A stretch of DNA of 64,000 nucleotides from Sphingosinicella sp. Lineage in GTDB: Bacteria; Pseudomonadota; Alphaproteobacteria; Sphingomonadales; Sphingomonadaceae. The notes under the pieces were generated by a model. The model worked only from the letters and a program-made list of their open reading frames with translations. It had not been told where the DNA came from and did no database searches. The DNA is taken from NCBI GenBank assembly GCA_013816585.1, contig JACDEE010000006.1:1-64000 (forward strand), in the 5' to 3' direction. Shown here in pieces: positions 951 through 11,433 of this stretch; the stretch's first letter is position 1, and each line of letters opens with the position of its first letter. Made by a program: the position numbers and the translations under genes.

Positions 951-3098
951 ATGCGCCTTGCCCTCAGCCTCCTGCTTCTTTCCACCACAGCCTGCGCCAC
1001 GCAGGGTTTCCCGCCCGTCGAAACGGCGGCGCCGCGAGCGGCCGCCATTCAGTATCCGAATACGAAGCGGCAGGAGCTCACAGAAACCCAGTTCGGGGTC
1101 GCGGTCGCCGATCCTTATCGCTGGCTGGAGGATGATGTCCGCGTAAATCCGGAAGTGCGCGAATGGGTCACGGCGCAAAATGCGGTGACCAACGCCTATC
1201 TCGCCACTTTGCCAGAGCGCGGGGCTTTCAAGGCCCGCCTCACCGAGCTTTACAATTTCGAGCGCTACGGAATCCCCGAAAAGGCCGGTGGCCGCTATTT
1301 CTATTCGCTCAACAATGGTTTGCAGAACCAGGCGATTCTTTACGTGCGGGACAGCATCAATGGCCCGGCACGAATGCTGATCGATCCCAACACTTTCTCG
1401 CAGGACGGCGCCACGGCGCTGGCCGAATGGGATCCGTCCAGCGACGGCAAAAAATTGCTGTACAGCATCCAGGAGGGCGGCACCGACTGGCGTGTCGTGC
1501 GCGTGCTGGACGTCGATACCGGCCGGGTTCTGGATGACGAGATCAAATGGGTGAAATTTTCGGCGCTTGATTGGGCCAAGGACGGATCAGGTTTCTATTA
1601 TTCGCGCTTTCCCGAGCCGCAGACGGCGCAGCAATTCCAGTCGCTGAACGAAAATCACGCAATCTATTTTCACAGGATCGGTACGCCGCAGAGCCAGGAC
1701 CGGCTGATCTTCGCCCAGATCGATCGCCCCAGGCTCAGCAACAATGCGCAAGTCTCGGAGGACGGCAAATGGCTGGTCGTCACCAGTTCCGAAGGAACTG
1801 ACGAGCGTTATGACATCACGCTGATCAGCCTGCAGGACCCGCAGGTCGCGCCGCGCCGCTTCATCACCGGGATGGAGCATGATTGGCAATATATCGGCAA
1901 CAAAGGCGACACCTTCTACTGGGCCACCAATAGCCAGGCGCCGCGCCTTCGCATCGTCACCACCGACATCAGAAAACCGGCGACCGAGGCGCGCGAGATC
2001 GTCGCGGAGGACGCGGCCACGCTCAGCGGCGCGTCGATCATCGGCAATCAATTGATCGCGTCTTATCTGGCCGACGCCAAAACCGAGGTCCGGACCTTCA
2101 CGCTGGATGGCCGGCGTACGGGAACGGTCAAGCTTCCCGGTATCGGAACCGCCGGCGGATTTTCCGGTGATTCAAGCGACAATGAGACCTTTTATTCCTT
2201 CGCCAGCTTTAACAGCCCGGGCGCCATTTATCGTTATGACAGCGCCACCGGTGACACGTCGGTTTTCGCGCAGCCGAAGCTTGCCATATCGCCGGACGAT
2301 TATGAGGTGAGCCAGCATTTCTACCGGTCCAAGGATGGAACCCGGGTGCCCTTGTTCCTGGTTCACCGCAAGGATGTGAGGCTGAAGAACCAGCCGACCC
2401 TGCTTTACGGTTATGGCGGCTTCAACGCGAACGAACTGCCTCGATATCAACCCAAATGGATGGCCTGGGTCGATCAGGGCGGTGTCCTGGCGGTCGCCAA
2501 CCTTCGCGGCGGGGGCGAATATGGAAAGGCGTGGCACGATGCCGGCCGCCTCGCCAACAAGCAGAATGTGTTCGACGATTTCATCGCGGCGGGCGAATAT
2601 CTGATCGGGGAAGGCATCACATCGAAGCAGCGGCTGGCGATCGAGGGCCGGTCCAATGGCGGGCTTCTGGTCGGGGCTGCGCTGAACCAGCGGCCGGACC
2701 TGTTCGCCGCCGCGCTTCCCACCGTCGGCGTGATGGACATGTTGCGGTTCGATCGCTTCACGGCGGGCCGCTATTGGGTGGACGATTACGGCTATCCGAG
2801 TCGCGAAGGCGATTTCAAAACGCTTTATGCTTATTCGCCCTACCACAACATCCGGTCGAAAGTGGATTATCCGGCGGTGTTAGTAACCACTGCCGACACC
2901 GACGACCGCGTCGTTCCCGGCCACAGCTTTAAATATATATCGGCGCTGCAGGCGGCCGATACCGATGGAAAACCGCATCTGATCCGGATCGAAACCCGTG
3001 CCGGCCATGGTTCGGGCAAGCCGACCGACAAGCAGATTGAGGAATATAGCGACATGTACGGCTTCATCGCACACCATACCGGCCTCAAGACACGCTGA
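951..3098 (+). CDS. Prolyl oligopeptidase family serine peptidase (S9A), exported
   Basis: 715 residues, the usual size of a prolyl oligopeptidase with an N-terminal beta-propeller (about residues 40-440) and a C-terminal alpha/beta-hydrolase domain. The family cuts short peptides after proline. The catalytic triad is visible: Ser568 in GRSNGG, Asp651 in DTDDRVVP and His686 in AGHGSGKPT. The N-terminus MRLALSLLLLSTTACAT is a hydrophobic export signal that ends in a near-lipobox (TTAC), so the protein may be a periplasmic lipoprotein. The ATG at 951 puts the signal peptide at the very start, but no strong ribosome site is seen. It stands alone between the upstream pseudogene and the repeat protein. 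The family call is firm; the natural substrate is unknown. Confidence 0.93.
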   Translation: MRLALSLLLLSTTACATQGFPPVETAAPRAAAIQYPNTKRQELTETQFGVAVADPYRWLEDDVRVNPEVREWVTAQNAVTNAYLATLPERGAFKARLTELYNFERYGIPEKAGGRYFYSLNNGLQNQAILYVRDSINGPARMLIDPNTFSQDGATALAEWDPSSDGKKLLYSIQEGGTDWRVVRVLDVDTGRVLDDEIKWVKFSALDWAKDGSGFYYSRFPEPQTAQQFQSLNENHAIYFHRIGTPQSQDRLIFAQIDRPRLSNNAQVSEDGKWLVVTSSEGTDERYDITLISLQDPQVAPRRFITGMEHDWQYIGNKGDTFYWATNSQAPRLRIVTTDIRKPATEAREIVAEDAATLSGASIIGNQLIASYLADAKTEVRTFTLDGRRTGTVKLPGIGTAGGFSGDSSDNETFYSFASFNSPGAIYRYDSATGDTSVFAQPKLAISPDDYEVSQHFYRSKDGTRVPLFLVHRKDVRLKNQPTLLYGYGGFNANELPRYQPKWMAWVDQGGVLAVANLRGGGEYGKAWHDAGRLANKQNVFDDFIAAGEYLIGEGITSKQRLAIEGRSNGGLLVGAALNQRPDLFAAALPTVGVMDMLRFDRFTAGRYWVDDYGYPSREGDFKTLYAYSPYHNIRSKVDYPAVLVTTADTDDRVVPGHSFKYISALQAADTDGKPHLIRIETRAGHGSGKPTDKQIEEYSDMYGFIAHHTGLKTR

Positions 3099-3156
3099 AT
3101 AAGGTAGGTGGGTTCCACCGGTTCGCCCCGGCGGCGGGTCATACTGGCGCCGATCC

Positions 3157-7081: not shown

Positions 7082-7960
7082 TCAAGGTCGGTCGAGCATC
7101 AGGACGGTGATCCCCTCCATCGCATAGCGCGCGTACAGGAAATCACGGACGCTGCTCACCCGGTCGCCGTCAAAGTCGATCGAGACGAAATAGGCTGGCG
7201 CCCCGAGCGAGACTTCGCGATCGTAGACCAGCATCGCAGCGCGGCCGTCGACCGTGCCGGCGGCAAACGCCCACCGTTCGGTTGCGGCGTAGGCACCGTA
7301 ATATTCGCCGACCTCGGATTTGCCCCGTCGCTGGAGCTTGGTGACGAGGTCGAGCTGCACGTCGTCGGCCAGCATGGCGCGGACTGCGTCGAAATCGCCG
7401 ACCTTAAACCCCTCGACATAAGCCACAAGCCTCGCGCGAACTGCCTTGGACAGGATGGGCGGCGAGGTATCGTCGGGTTCGGCGGCGATTTCGCGCAAGC
7501 GGGCGCGGCCGCGCTGCAGGCCCGATTTCGCGGCGGGCGCGCTTGCGCCGGTAATCGCCGATATCTCATCCAATGAATGGCCGAGCACGTCTTTCAAAAT
7601 CACGGTGCTGCGTTGGAGCGCCGGCAGCCGCAGGAAGGTGCGCAGGCTGGCGGTAATAATATCGGGATCTGGCATGTCGGGGGCGGCTATCGCGGCGAGT
7701 TCATCCTCGGTCAGCGGTTCAGGCACCTCGCGACGGCGGCGTAGAAAATCGAGCGCAGCGTTATGAGCGATACGGAAAAGCCAGCCTTCAGGATTGTTGA
7801 GCGGGCCAACCGATTCCCTTGCGGCGTGTGCCTTGAGCATTGCCTCCTGGACGACGTCCTCACCATCAATCGCCGAGCCGGTCATGCGCGCGCAGTAGCG
7901 ATGGAGCGTCGGGCGCATTGCCGCCAGCATCGTCTCGAAATCGCGCGCATGGGCAGGCAT
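7082..7960 (-). CDS. ECF-type RNA polymerase sigma factor with C-terminal SnoaL-like domain
   Basis: 292 residues from the ATG at 7960 (AAGGA ribosome site); a longer open frame upstream overlaps the SDR gene and is rejected. Region 2 holds EDVVQEAMLKAHAA and WLFRIAHNAALDFLRRRR; region 4 holds LPALQRSTVILKDVLGHSLDEISAITG. A C-terminal extension of about 120 residues has the SnoaL/NTF2-like fold pattern (YVEGFKVGDFDAVRAMLADD), as in SigJ- and ECF41-like groups, where the extension controls activity in place of an anti-sigma factor. It is the last gene of a three-gene operon with an SDR and a monooxygenase-fold protein, a common neighbourhood for these sigma factors. Exact ECF group is not assigned. 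Confidence 0.9.
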   Translation of the reverse strand: MPAHARDFETMLAAMRPTLHRYCARMTGSAIDGEDVVQEAMLKAHAARESVGPLNNPEGWLFRIAHNAALDFLRRRREVPEPLTEDELAAIAAPDMPDPDIITASLRTFLRLPALQRSTVILKDVLGHSLDEISAITGASAPAAKSGLQRGRARLREIAAEPDDTSPPILSKAVRARLVAYVEGFKVGDFDAVRAMLADDVQLDLVTKLQRRGKSEVGEYYGAYAATERWAFAAGTVDGRAAMLVYDREVSLGAPAYFVSIDFDGDRVSSVRDFLYARYAMEGITVLMLDRP

Positions 7961-7970
7961 CGTGATCCTT

Positions 7971-8750
7971 TCATTGGTCGAGCGGCATGATATCGACGCT
8001 GTCTCGGAAGCCGTAGGCGACTCCCGTTTCGTAGCGCGGTTCGGCGAGCAGCTCGGCGACTTGCCGCCCGATCTGCGACGGCAGGAGATGCGAATCGTAG
8101 CGCTTGAGAACATATTCGTCGACGCCGAGCCCCTCGACCTGCGCACAGGTGGCGGCGACAGACCGGCCGAGCTCGGTTCCGGCAATCAACTGACTTGGCA
8201 CCAGCACCTGGAAGCTGATCGCCAGCTTGCGGCCGCGCGAGACAGCATTCGCTTGATGCGCCATGAACCAAATCATCCGCTTCGCGCCGATGTAACCGCC
8301 TGACATGCTCAAGTTGCTGGGATCGATCGCGGGATGGCTCATCACCATTGCTGCGCCACTCGACATGATGGGGGCGCGCGCGCCGGGCCGCATCGGTGTT
8401 CTGAGGGCCGCCTGCACGCCGATCAGCGTCGCCTTCACGTCGGTGTTCCATACCGCCGAGAAACCGGCCCAGTCTTGCTGGTCTATTTCCGCAATCGGGG
8501 CACGTGCGCCAGCATTGAGGATCAGCACGTCCGGATCGATATCAGCAACGATGCGATTGATCAGCTCGGCATCGGTCGCGTCGCCGGCGATGGTCCGGGC
8601 GCCGGCGTCACGAGCAGCGCCGAACTTTGTGTCGTTGCGAGCGATTGCGGTAACATCGGCCCCACGTTCGGCCAACGCCTCGACCATCGCGAGACCTAGG
8701 CCGGCGCTGCCGCCGGTGACGATGACGCGGGAATTTGCAAGATCGGGCAT
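7971..8750 (-). CDS. SDR family NAD(P)-dependent oxidoreductase
   Basis: 259 residues. The nucleotide-binding motif is TGGSAGLG (Gly13, Gly17, Gly19), followed by NAG (79-81). The active-site Tyr153 and Lys157 are in YIGAK, and Ser131 is the likely third residue. A classical soluble short-chain dehydrogenase/reductase; the substrate cannot be told. It sits 10 bases upstream of the sigma factor gene and 14 bases downstream of the monooxygenase-fold gene, so it is cotranscribed. Confidence 0.9.
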   Translation of the reverse strand: MPDLANSRVIVTGGSAGLGLAMVEALAERGADVTAIARNDTKFGAARDAGARTIAGDATDAELINRIVADIDPDVLILNAGARAPIAEIDQQDWAGFSAVWNTDVKATLIGVQAALRTPMRPGARAPIMSSGAAMVMSHPAIDPSNLSMSGGYIGAKRMIWFMAHQANAVSRGRKLAISFQVLVPSQLIAGTELGRSVAATCAQVEGLGVDEYVLKRYDSHLLPSQIGRQVAELLAEPRYETGVAYGFRDSVDIMPLDQ

Positions 8751-8764
8751 GGCTTGTCTCCCGC

Positions 8765-9085
8765 TCAGGCCTGACGCGCATGGGCTACGGCGCCCACGAC
8801 CGAATCGAACGCGGCAAGCGCCGCGATCTTGGGAAAGTAGGCCATCATGCGCGGGTCGGTTTGCATCGCGCTGACCGCCGCCGGATCACGCCATTTCGAG
8901 ATGATGACCACGTGCGAACCGTCCCGGGCGGCGACCAGGTTGGTGGAGGTCCATCCGTCCAGCGTCGTGATCACGGTGTCGATGTTCTGGCGCAGCAGAT
9001 CGACGAGCGTCGCTTGATCCGTTGGGTCACAGGTGAGCACGTTAACGAGGGTAGTCGCGGCCGAATCGCAGATAATGGCGTTCAT
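8765..9085 (-). CDS. Antibiotic biosynthesis monooxygenase (ABM) domain protein
   Basis: 106 residues from the ATG at 9085, preceded by AAGGAGA; the longer frame to 9166 has no such site. The ferredoxin-like ABM fold is suggested by the pattern VNVLTCDPTDQATLVDLLRQ, then GWTSTNLVAARDGSHVVIISKW. Such proteins act on quinones or hydroxylated aromatics, or have unknown small-molecule roles. It is the first gene of the operon that ends with the SnoaL-type sigma factor, so it may be part of its regulon. Confidence 0.8.
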   Translation of the reverse strand: MNAIICDSAATTLVNVLTCDPTDQATLVDLLRQNIDTVITTLDGWTSTNLVAARDGSHVVIISKWRDPAAVSAMQTDPRMMAYFPKIAALAAFDSVVGAVAHARQA

Positions 9086-9361
9086 TTGGCTTCTCCTTGG
9101 GAAGGCCGGAAGTGACCTCGCTTTCAGAGAGACGGCTCGTGGGGTCCAAACGGATCGGCATCGCAAAAATATTTCGCCCTTGCAGACACTGCCTTGAACC
9201 GGCGATGCGGCGGTCTGCTGCGAATCGCTATGCTCAGGCCAGCCGGCCAGCTTTAAATATTTATGAGGGAATGGCCGCGCAGCGCACGATGATGATCAGC
9301 CGAGCAAGGCCGCGAGGAGGGAAAATATTCTCTCTCCTCCATTTTTAAATATAGGCTGCTA
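9086..9361. other. Intergenic region with divergent promoters
   Basis: About 276 bases between the reverse sigma-factor operon and the motif before the flavin monooxygenase. It holds AT-rich patches (TTTAAATATTTATGAG near 9252 and TTTTTAAATATAGG near 9343) that would suit promoters. No small gene with a ribosome site is seen. Confidence 0.4.
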
Positions 9362-9381
9362 GGGGCTTGCTTCAAGACCCC
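9362..9381. promoter_or_regulatory. Inverted-repeat element resembling the rifamycin-associated element (RAE)
   Basis: GGGGCTTGCTTCAAGACCCC is an imperfect inverted repeat (GGGGCTTG against CAAG-A-CCCC). It ends 49 bases before the flavin monooxygenase ATG. Against the actinomycete RAE consensus as I remember it (GGGGCTTGCGGCAAGGCCCC) it matches at 17 of 20 positions. RAE is known upstream of rifamycin-inactivating and tolerance genes. The downstream gene here belongs to the same enzyme class as the rifamycin monooxygenase Rox. The motif is seen; the link to rifamycin is inference. Confidence 0.65.
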
Positions 9382-9430
9382 GCACCCCCCTTAAAAGCTT
9401 TGCCTCTTCAATCACGAATGGGAGGCGCGA

Positions 9431-10942
9431 ATGTCTGGATTGCCAAATAACGACCATCAAGTGGTGATCGCCGGGGGAGGTCCCACCGGGTTGATGCTGG
9501 CGGGAGAATTGGCGCTGGCGGGCATCGACGTCGCGATTGTGGAGCGGCGCGCCGACCAAAGCCTGGCTGGTTCTCGCGCCGGCGGCTTGAGCGCACGCAC
9601 CATCGAAATATTGGATCAGCGCGGTATCGCAGATCGGTTCCTTGCCGAGGGCCAAAAGGCGCAGGTCGCGGGCTTCGGTACAACGCGTCTGGATATCAGC
9701 GATTTTCCCACGCGCCATCCTTACGGCCTGGGTCTGTGGCAGAACCATATCGAACGAATATTGGCCGCCTGGGTCGAGCAATTGCCCATTACCTTCTATC
9801 GCCGCGAGGAGGTGACAGGGCTGGCGCAGGACGAAGAGGGCGTCGACGTCGCCCTCGGCAACGGACGAGCATTAAGGGCCGATTATCTGGTCGGGTGTGA
9901 CGGCGGACGTAGCCTCGTTCGCAAGGCCGCTGGCATCGACTTTCCCGGATGGGATGCGACGACAAGCAGCCTGCTCGCCCAGGTGGAATTTGATGAAATA
10001 CCCGAATTGGGCATCCATCGCGGCCCCCAGGGCCTCTATTCGTTCGGGCGGCTCGAATATGAGATAAGCGACGGCGAAATCATCTACAAAAATGAAGGGC
10101 CGGTGGGGGTGATGGTGACCGAAAGGCAGGTCGGCCACGGCGAGCCCACGCTGAAGGATCTGAGCGACGAACTGATCGCCATGTGCGGAACGGACTATGG
10201 GGTCCGCGATCCGATCTGGATATCAAGGTTCAGCGATGTGTCGCGCCAGGCGGAATCCTATCGCAAGGGCCGCGTTCTGCTGGCGGGCGATGCCGCCCAC
10301 ATCCACTCCCCCGTGGGCGGCCAGGGCCTCAACACCGGCGTGCAGGATGCGGTGAATCTCGGATGGAAGATCGCCCAGCGGGTGAGAGGCATTTCGCCCG
10401 ACGCGTTGCTCGACACCTATCATGATGAACGCCATCCGGTAGGCGCCCGGTTGCTTCGCAACACGATGGCGATGGCCGCGCTCCACCGCGAGGATGATCG
10501 TATAAAAGCTCTAGGCGGAATCATCGCGGAGCTGCTTGCCATGGAAGAGCCGTACAAGCGCTTCGCCGCGATGATGACAGGCCTCGATATTCATTACGAC
10601 CTTGGCGAGGGCCATCCGCTGCTCGGCCGCCGTATGCCCGATCTTGACCTCATCACGGACACAGGACCCTTGCGCGTTTTCACGTTGCTCCATGACGCCA
10701 GGCCGGTCTTGCTCAACCTCGGGGAGCCAAGCGGCTTCGGCATCGCGCCATGGGCGGACAGGGTCCGGCTGGTGCACGCCCGATATGAAGGTCCGTGGGA
10801 GCTTCCCGCGATCGGTGCGGTCAGCGCCCCCTCCGCGGTCCTCATCCGTCCCGACGGCCATGTCGCCTGGGTGGGCGAGCAGACGGATTCCGGGTTGGAG
10901 CAGGCCTTGGCAAAGTGGTTCGGACCACGGACGGCGGCTTAG
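9431..10942 (+). CDS. FAD-dependent class A aromatic monooxygenase, rifamycin monooxygenase (Rox)-like
   Basis: 503 residues. The Rossmann motif GGGPTG lies at 15-20, the DG motif in LVGCDGGRSLVRK (about 158-168) and the second FAD motif GDAAH at 286-290, followed by SPVGGQGLNTGVQDAVNLGWK. The C-terminal thioredoxin-like domain (about 400-500) is kept. This is the PHBH/RdmE/Rox group, which hydroxylates polyketide or aromatic substrates with NAD(P)H and O2. The ribosome site GGGAGG lies just before ATG 9431. The RAE-like repeat upstream favours a rifamycin-type inducer, but an anthracycline-like or other aromatic substrate is equally possible from sequence alone. Confidence 0.88.
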   Translation: MSGLPNNDHQVVIAGGGPTGLMLAGELALAGIDVAIVERRADQSLAGSRAGGLSARTIEILDQRGIADRFLAEGQKAQVAGFGTTRLDISDFPTRHPYGLGLWQNHIERILAAWVEQLPITFYRREEVTGLAQDEEGVDVALGNGRALRADYLVGCDGGRSLVRKAAGIDFPGWDATTSSLLAQVEFDEIPELGIHRGPQGLYSFGRLEYEISDGEIIYKNEGPVGVMVTERQVGHGEPTLKDLSDELIAMCGTDYGVRDPIWISRFSDVSRQAESYRKGRVLLAGDAAHIHSPVGGQGLNTGVQDAVNLGWKIAQRVRGISPDALLDTYHDERHPVGARLLRNTMAMAALHREDDRIKALGGIIAELLAMEEPYKRFAAMMTGLDIHYDLGEGHPLLGRRMPDLDLITDTGPLRVFTLLHDARPVLLNLGEPSGFGIAPWADRVRLVHARYEGPWELPAIGAVSAPSAVLIRPDGHVAWVGEQTDSGLEQALAKWFGPRTAA

Positions 10943-10998: not shown

Positions 10999-11433
10999 AT
11001 GTATGTAAGTCAAGAAACCGCTGACCAGACGGACGAAAGGCTGCGGGCGGTGATCGCGGCTTCAGACCTGGTCTGGTATGAAAGCGCTTACGCATTCGAG
11101 GAACGTGCGGTCGATCGGTTTCCGCTCGCGGATATTGTAGATGCTCTTGCCTTTGTGCGCGACGAGCAGGTTTGGAGCGTCCTGAAGCCCGCCGGCCCAA
11201 ATGCCGCCGAGACTTTCGGCCTGTTCGCTTTCCATTTTCCCGACGGGATGGACAATAGCGGCTTCGTCGGCTGGCTCGCATCCACGATGAAGCAGCAATT
11301 GGGAACGGGCGTGTTTGTCGTCTGCGGTCAGAATAGGCAGCGCGGCGGCATTTTCGATTATTGGGGCGTGCCGATCGACTTGAAGGAAGAAGCTGCCGAG
11401 GTGCTGGACCGGCTTCGCGCGCAGACCGCCTGA
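10999..11433 (+). CDS. Conserved hypothetical protein, possibly DUF6196
   Basis: 144 residues, soluble, no signal peptide. Distinctive blocks are YAFEERAVDRFP, FHFPDGMDNSGFVGWLAS and GVFVVCGQNRQRGGIFDYWG. I recall a family of this pattern (DUF6196) but cannot confirm it. It follows the flavin monooxygenase by 56 bases with AAAGGGAGA before the ATG, so it is probably cotranscribed with it. No function is known. Confidence 0.7.
   Translation: MYVSQETADQTDERLRAVIAASDLVWYESAYAFEERAVDRFPLADIVDALAFVRDEQVWSVLKPAGPNAAETFGLFAFHFPDGMDNSGFVGWLASTMKQQLGTGVFVVCGQNRQRGGIFDYWGVPIDLKEEAAEVLDRLRAQTA

Follow-up and report, generated by a model that had tools for sequence, protein, structure and literature searches.

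The window analysed here is a 64,000-nucleotide stretch of a Sphingosinicella sp. genome (contig JACDEE010000006.1, positions 1 to 64,000). It contains an imperfect inverted repeat, GGGGCTTGCTTCAAGACCCC, located 49 bp upstream of the ATG of an intact 503-codon open reading frame (ORF), which encodes a group A flavin monooxygenase (Table 1). The first-pass annotation of this DNA had likened the repeat to the rifamycin-associated element (RAE) of actinomycetes and the enzyme to the Rox-type monooxygenases. In actinomycetes, the RAE is located upstream of genes for defence against rifamycins, whose expression the drug induces. The repeat was found on the plus strand with letters exactly as first noted. 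The claimed agreement of 17 of 20 positions was borne out against the 20-mer taken as the actinomycete RAE; moreover, all 16 specified positions of GGGGCTTGNNNCAAGNCCCC are matched. The window repeat has the form of the RAE, a consensus inverted repeat of about 19 bp. It is the sole site in the window at up to 3 mismatches, and shuffled sequences gave none; GGGGCTTGNNNCAAGNCCCC has one exact match in the 2.82-Mb genome, which is the window site. Three Arthrobacter/Pseudarthrobacter loci (L075, L076, and L084) have that actinomycete 20-mer, with no mismatch, upstream of this enzyme.

The enzyme contains FAD_binding_3 and Rng_hyd_C domains. It passed the PRK06834 profile (NF005303) with 857.5 bits against a cut-off of 625, and was placed inside a separate 99-row clade with 99% support in the Shimodaira-Hasegawa-like approximate likelihood-ratio test (SH-aLRT) of a tree made by quick search, with no bootstrap. 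Relatives of the enzyme were collected from species genomes of many phyla, and the best 80 of 150 found were examined for the RAE in the 450 bp before the gene, with the number of matched positions among the 16 specified as the score. Of the 80 relatives, 57 matched 14 or more positions and 60 matched 13 or more; the downstream control stretch of equal length reached 13 in 0 of 80, and mononucleotide shuffles in a mean of 0.7 of 80. The enrichment of the motif before such genes, which the first-pass annotation had proposed to look for, was thus observed far outside Actinobacteria. Ten loci, nine of Bradyrhizobium and one of Devosia, carry the window 20-mer without a single change.

A whole-genome search with GGGGCTTGNNNCAAGNCC covered 40 of the 80 host genomes. 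The pattern was present in 29 of the 40, at 33 places, whereas the reversed control was present in 1 of the 40; 25 of the 29 site-bearing genomes have one place and four have two. The promoter of the PRK06834 monooxygenase accounts for 27 of the 33 places (26 by sequence identity, one from the motif). The remaining six comprise one ARR gene, one 47-codon glycosyltransferase-like frame, one intergenic region between a major facilitator superfamily (MFS) gene and an extracytoplasmic function (ECF) sigma factor gene, and three unexplained places (G449:C136, inside a long ORF; G453:C187; and G438:C32).

Scans blind to the genes were performed on 396 genomes of the order with a 20-base pattern, and on 385 genomes of the class and 398 of the phylum with a 19-base pattern; these draws overlap. 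Exact sites were identified in 10 different genomes, the window's own included. In six of the nine other proteobacterial genomes, the site lies before a monooxygenase (G819, G1180, and G1231), a rifampin ADP-ribosyltransferase, ARR (G226 and G466, with 210 and 199 bits against a profile cut-off of 130), or a glycosyltransferase that scores best with the Rgt family (G1319). Such scans, which the first-pass annotation had suggested for sphingomonad genomes, thus also led to two further types of rifamycin-inactivating enzymes. In the order scan, the motif was found in 3 of 396 genomes and the reversed control in 0.

The link to these enzyme types was also observed from the gene side. In 149 actinobacterial reference genomes, drawn from the phylum to which an RAE-bearing Arthrobacter belongs, four loci pass the curated Rox cut-off. 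The RAE lies upstream of three of these four rox genes (15, 15, and 14 of 16 positions) in the same promoter frame, and none was found before the fourth; therefore, the motif is tied to rox whichever 20-mer is taken as the reference. In the order, 27 ARR loci were found in 25 of the 396 genomes. Five of the 27 have an RAE-like site with at least 12 of 16 positions and a similar leader, and two further ARR genes with an RAE were found besides these. The RAE is hence located before rifamycin-defence genes as a group: PRK06834 (60 of 80), rox (3 of 4), ARR, and one Rgt-like gene. The Rox sister family is the commonest cargo of the RAE in these loci, which were largely chosen through that enzyme.

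An alignment of 85 RAE promoters, all selected for having the site (69 non-redundant), included 74 monooxygenase, 3 rox, 6 ARR, and 2 glycosyltransferase promoters. They have in common an upstream block, CCTnCCacTTTCAnnTnTAT, then the RAE, and then GGtCgTGCCGCAnAATCGC; the GGGG/CCC flanks of the RAE are conserved beyond any -35 hexamer. Every alignment column was scored for -10-like hexamers. Among the 69 non-redundant promoters, the highest-scoring sense column (mean log-odds 4.10; next column 0.94) is separated by 19 bp from the TTG in the RAE, and it is the top column in the alphaproteobacterial, other, and rox promoters. On the antisense side, the highest score (3.47; next 1.04) belongs to the column at this same distance of 19 bp from the TTG in the opposite arm. 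This antisense column is top in rox and in the mainly actinobacterial "other" monooxygenase group, and second in the ARR and glycosyltransferase promoters. In the gammaproteobacteria, an antisense spacing of 16 bp comes first and 19 bp second; in the alphaproteobacteria, 18 and then 16 bp lead, and 19 bp falls outside the best three.

In the window, the RAE overlaps the -35 of the predicted sense promoter (TTGCTT, 19 bp, TAAAAG). A consensus promoter scan of 9090-9450, which admits spacers of 16-18 only, reported a single promoter-like site, the antisense TTGAAG-16-TATATT, where 0.2 were expected. The palindrome is thus predicted to hold both a sense and an antisense -35, forming back-to-back promoters.

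Table 1. Features at the monooxygenase locus of the window
Feature	Position	Strand	Basis
Conserved block upstream of the RAE, CTCTCCTCCATTTTTAAATATA in the window, consensus CCTnCCacTTTCAnnTnTAT	9332..9353		Promoter alignment
Predicted antisense -10 TATATT, 16-bp spacer	9348..9353	-	Consensus promoter scan
RAE-like imperfect inverted repeat GGGGCTTGCTTCAAGACCCC	9362..9381		16/16 specified positions of GGGGCTTGNNNCAAGNCCCC
Predicted sense -35 TTGCTT, inside the RAE	9367..9372	+	Columns of TTGCgG in aligned RAE promoters
Predicted antisense -35 TTGAAG, other RAE arm	9370..9375	-	Consensus promoter scan
Predicted sense -10 TAAAAG, 19-bp spacer	9392..9397	+	Best sense column spacing
Shine-Dalgarno-like GGGAGG	9420..9425	+	Sequence
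Group A flavin adenine dinucleotide (FAD) monooxygenase, 503 aa, NCBIfam NF005303 (PRK06834), Rox sister family; probable rifamycin-inactivating enzyme	9431..10942	+	

We consider it likely that the repeat is an RAE, the operator-like core of a rifamycin-inducible promoter, that the gene encodes a rifamycin-inactivating Rox-sister flavin monooxygenase, and that both were acquired together by horizontal transfer as a one-gene inducible resistance cassette. Without the drug, the sense promoter would be near-silent, with its -35 within the palindrome and a poor 19-bp spacer. Rifamycin acting at RNA polymerase would lift a block at the RAE, or lead to activation, and the enzyme would be made; it would then hydroxylate the naphthoquinone/naphthol core and so inactivate the antibiotic. 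The RAE, its promoter frame, the link to rifamycin-inactivating families across phyla, the lack of a neighbouring gene common to most loci, and the fold and family of the enzyme are apparent in the sequences compared. We infer the inducibility of the cassette, its silent and induced logic, and its substrate and chemistry. The first-pass annotation had proposed a rifamycin circuit outside Actinobacteria, either acquired or convergent. The circuit is supported, at the sequence level, by the motif-gene linkage and the promoter frame. Acquisition is preferred because different phyla are intermingled in the tree and actinobacterial rox has the same promoter frame; convergence fits less well. The findings suggest that the RAE moves together with the genes under its control, as a horizontally spread promoter that very probably responds to rifamycins.

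Several results weigh against this reading. The enzyme failed the Rox profile (NF033145, rif_monoox; 459.2 bits, cut-off 800), and the Rox clade (100% SH-aLRT) excludes it; because of the low score and the separate clade, it is not Rox itself, and this identity was rejected. The enzyme falls in a sister family, and not within the curated family and clade of the rifampin monooxygenases. A position outside the rifamycin clade had been named beforehand as evidence against the proposal, and it partly counts as such; yet the sister family also carries the RAE. Fold comparison placed the enzyme equally near OxyS and Rox and does not separate them. At a threshold of 13 or more of 16 positions, the element is absent from 20 of the 80 relatives, including 10 syntenic Arthrobacter loci with close relatives. 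On the symbiotic megaplasmid pSymA of S. meliloti 1021, no clear RAE (11/16) was found before a 69% relative of the enzyme. Similarly, 22 of the 27 ARR loci lack the site, and the glycosyltransferase of G1319 is below the curated Rgt cut-off, with 481.5 of 800 bits. The remaining three scan sites include two that resemble intrinsic terminators (G622 and G1111) and one in a sphingomonad that lies 44 bp before yajC (G284). The motif was found in 4 of 385 genomes of the class against 3 for the reversed control, and in 6 of 398 of the phylum against 7 (columns as interpreted); because these counts are not above the control, the evidence consists in the placement of the motif and not in its frequency. 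In the gammaproteobacterial monooxygenase promoters, the 19-bp sense column comes third, behind two columns of the upstream block, and in the eight ARR and glycosyltransferase promoters it is outside the best three. The window's own sense -10, TAAAAG, has no T at position 6.

The palindrome might instead be the site of a conserved, unlinked factor that senses aromatic polyketides, with the enzyme detoxifying a non-rifamycin aromatic compound of the tetracycline or angucycline type. The GGGG/CCC flanks, kept beyond any -35 hexamer, are consistent with such a factor, and the enzyme fold is as near to OxyS and PgaE as to Rox. An unknown factor is also considered in the available parts of a review (PMC10719064) and of a 2026 paper (PMC12802891). 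However, the same RAE lies before ARR, Rox, and Rgt-like genes, and no neighbour family within about 4 kb occurs in more than nine RAE-bearing loci; we regard a polyketide sensor as improbable. ARR is not known to act on anything other than rifamycins, which also counts against it.

A repeat that acts in the leader RNA, as the hairpin of an intrinsic terminator or attenuator, and not at the DNA level, would fit the GC-rich hairpin and the two scan sites that resemble true terminators. The window repeat is followed by no T run, and its -10 spacing is conserved relative to the repeat, which an RNA hairpin does not need; this explanation is very improbable, and a terminator identity was rejected since the terminator scan did not report the repeat. 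Least probable of all is a chance palindrome before an unrelated catabolic hydroxylase. Chance would agree with the per-genome motif frequencies of the class and phylum scans, but not with the location of the motif ahead of one kind of enzyme in 60 of 80 loci against 0 of 80 controls, nor with the identical 20-mer in the Bradyrhizobium and Devosia loci.

The proposed inducible cassette raises the question of its sensor. Neighbouring ORFs (70 aa or longer, up to about 4 kb away) were clustered over the 80 loci and the window, and no neighbour family common to most loci was found. The commonest family, present in nine RAE-bearing loci, resembles a generic short-chain dehydrogenase by eye. An adjacent regulator was thus rejected as a general explanation of the palindrome. 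That no linked regulator is shared across phyla argues for a sensor that all these phyla possess, or for RNA polymerase in that role; the spread hints at the latter. The conserved GGGG/CCC flanks, on the other hand, argue for some binding factor. A more speculative possibility is that the RAE might be a portable rifamycin sensor needing no dedicated regulator: its two overlapping, outward-facing -35s would admit one RNA polymerase at a time, sense or antisense, and rifamycin, with RNA polymerase as the sensor, would shift the competition to the sense side. If true, this would explain the presence of the RAE before three unrelated types of resistance enzymes in many phyla with no travelling regulator. 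We hold it doubtful, and its probability was lowered slightly because of an ECF sigma factor gene beside an RAE in Devosia and the weak antisense signal in the ARR promoters. That gene is the only regulator gene adjoining an extra RAE among those inspected. In Devosia insulae (L155:2766), a second RAE is flanked by the oppositely oriented ECF gene and by an MFS efflux gene of the DHA2 family (TIGR00711, 307 bits), which starts about 305 bp away; the RAE may thus also control a rifamycin exporter or a candidate regulator.

The element resembles the actinobacterial RAE in being a 19-20 bp imperfect palindrome over the sense -35, before rifamycin-inactivating genes, and in sharing the extended promoter frame of three of the four curated actinobacterial rox genes. 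It differs in that the window element occurs in a sphingomonad, with kin in several non-actinobacterial phyla; in its alphaproteobacterial centre, which is mostly CTT/TTC and not CGG; in being a single site in most site-bearing host genomes here (25/29); and in its link to a different monooxygenase family. The enzyme shares the fold and FAD domains of Rox/RIFMO (PDB 5kow, 5kox, 5vqb, and 6brd) and 44-45% identity with the four curated rox loci, although score and clade set it apart. Arr (NF033144) genes in sphingomonads, another alphaproteobacterium, and a gammaproteobacterium have the RAE in a similar promoter frame, as does the one Rgt-like (NF000354) gene. The folds of these two enzymes are unrelated to the monooxygenase, and neither enzyme is present in the window.

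The available part of PMC10719064 describes that the RAE of mycobacterial helD sits over the -35 of the sense promoter; deletion of its upstream half is reported to have abolished rifampicin induction, and this deletion also removed the -35. In the rifampicin alarm of B. subtilis (helD and pps), the available text of PMC12802891 describes, as predicted here, sense and antisense promoters in a small region before a rifampicin-defence gene. Those promoters are convergent and helD has no RAE, whereas here they are predicted to be back-to-back, with overlapping -35s in the palindrome. As far as the accessible parts of these sources go, the RAE has been treated as actinobacterial with an unknown regulator (PMC10719064, PMC12802891, and PMC8655204) or mentioned in passing (PMC10194278 and PMC7283461), and the rph-RAE pair is stated to be seen only in Actinobacteria (PMC13176060). 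The literature listings searched gave no report of a proteobacterial RAE; two papers that might mention one, the original PNAS description and the HelR study in M. abscessus, lay outside the reach of this search. An RAE promoter that recurs across phyla offers an easy bioinformatic marker by which genes for rifamycin resistance can be spotted in environmental bacteria. PRK06834, so far named just "hypothetical protein", would become a probable rifamycin monooxygenase family. Since the factor that reads the RAE has to be common to alphaproteobacteria, gammaproteobacteria, and actinobacteria, unless it is RNA polymerase, the identity of the rifamycin sensor becomes testable.

Some individual loci deserve mention. 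An uncultured Xanthomonadaceae genome (G437, L157) has a second RAE at 3146, reading down to an arr start at 3071 on the minus strand; the ARR gene is intact (227 bits), and the same gammaproteobacterial genome also holds an RAE-monooxygenase, so that it seems to contain a two-gene rifamycin regulon. In a Chloroflexi metagenome-assembled genome (L160:1033), an RAE in the usual frame precedes a 47-codon ORF whose start is like an Rgt-type glycosyltransferase. No family match was obtained for this frame, which resembles the remains of a decayed gene whose promoter has persisted. The RAE-less Arthrobacter loci (L039, L040, L042-L047, L063, and L082) have a conserved neighbourhood, as if under another promoter, and a LysR-like frame was noted by eye upstream of the pSymA relative (L231). 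The exact RAE-pattern site of G284 (L159:3519) is unexplained, and the extended promoter frame is absent there by eye. A search for window 9300-9500 in plasmids gave no match; the stricter pattern GGGGCTTGCNNCAAGNCCCC is present in one viral contig, with no resistance gene around it as judged by eye.

In the window, a DUF6196 protein (10999-11433, plus strand) begins 56 bp after the monooxygenase stop and may be co-transcribed with it; this neighbour is not widely common to the loci of the relatives. On the other side, the antisense promoter predicted at the RAE faces a divergent minus-strand cluster (7085-9085), whose products are an ABM-domain protein, a short-chain dehydrogenase, and an ECF sigma factor that ends in a SnoaL-like tail.
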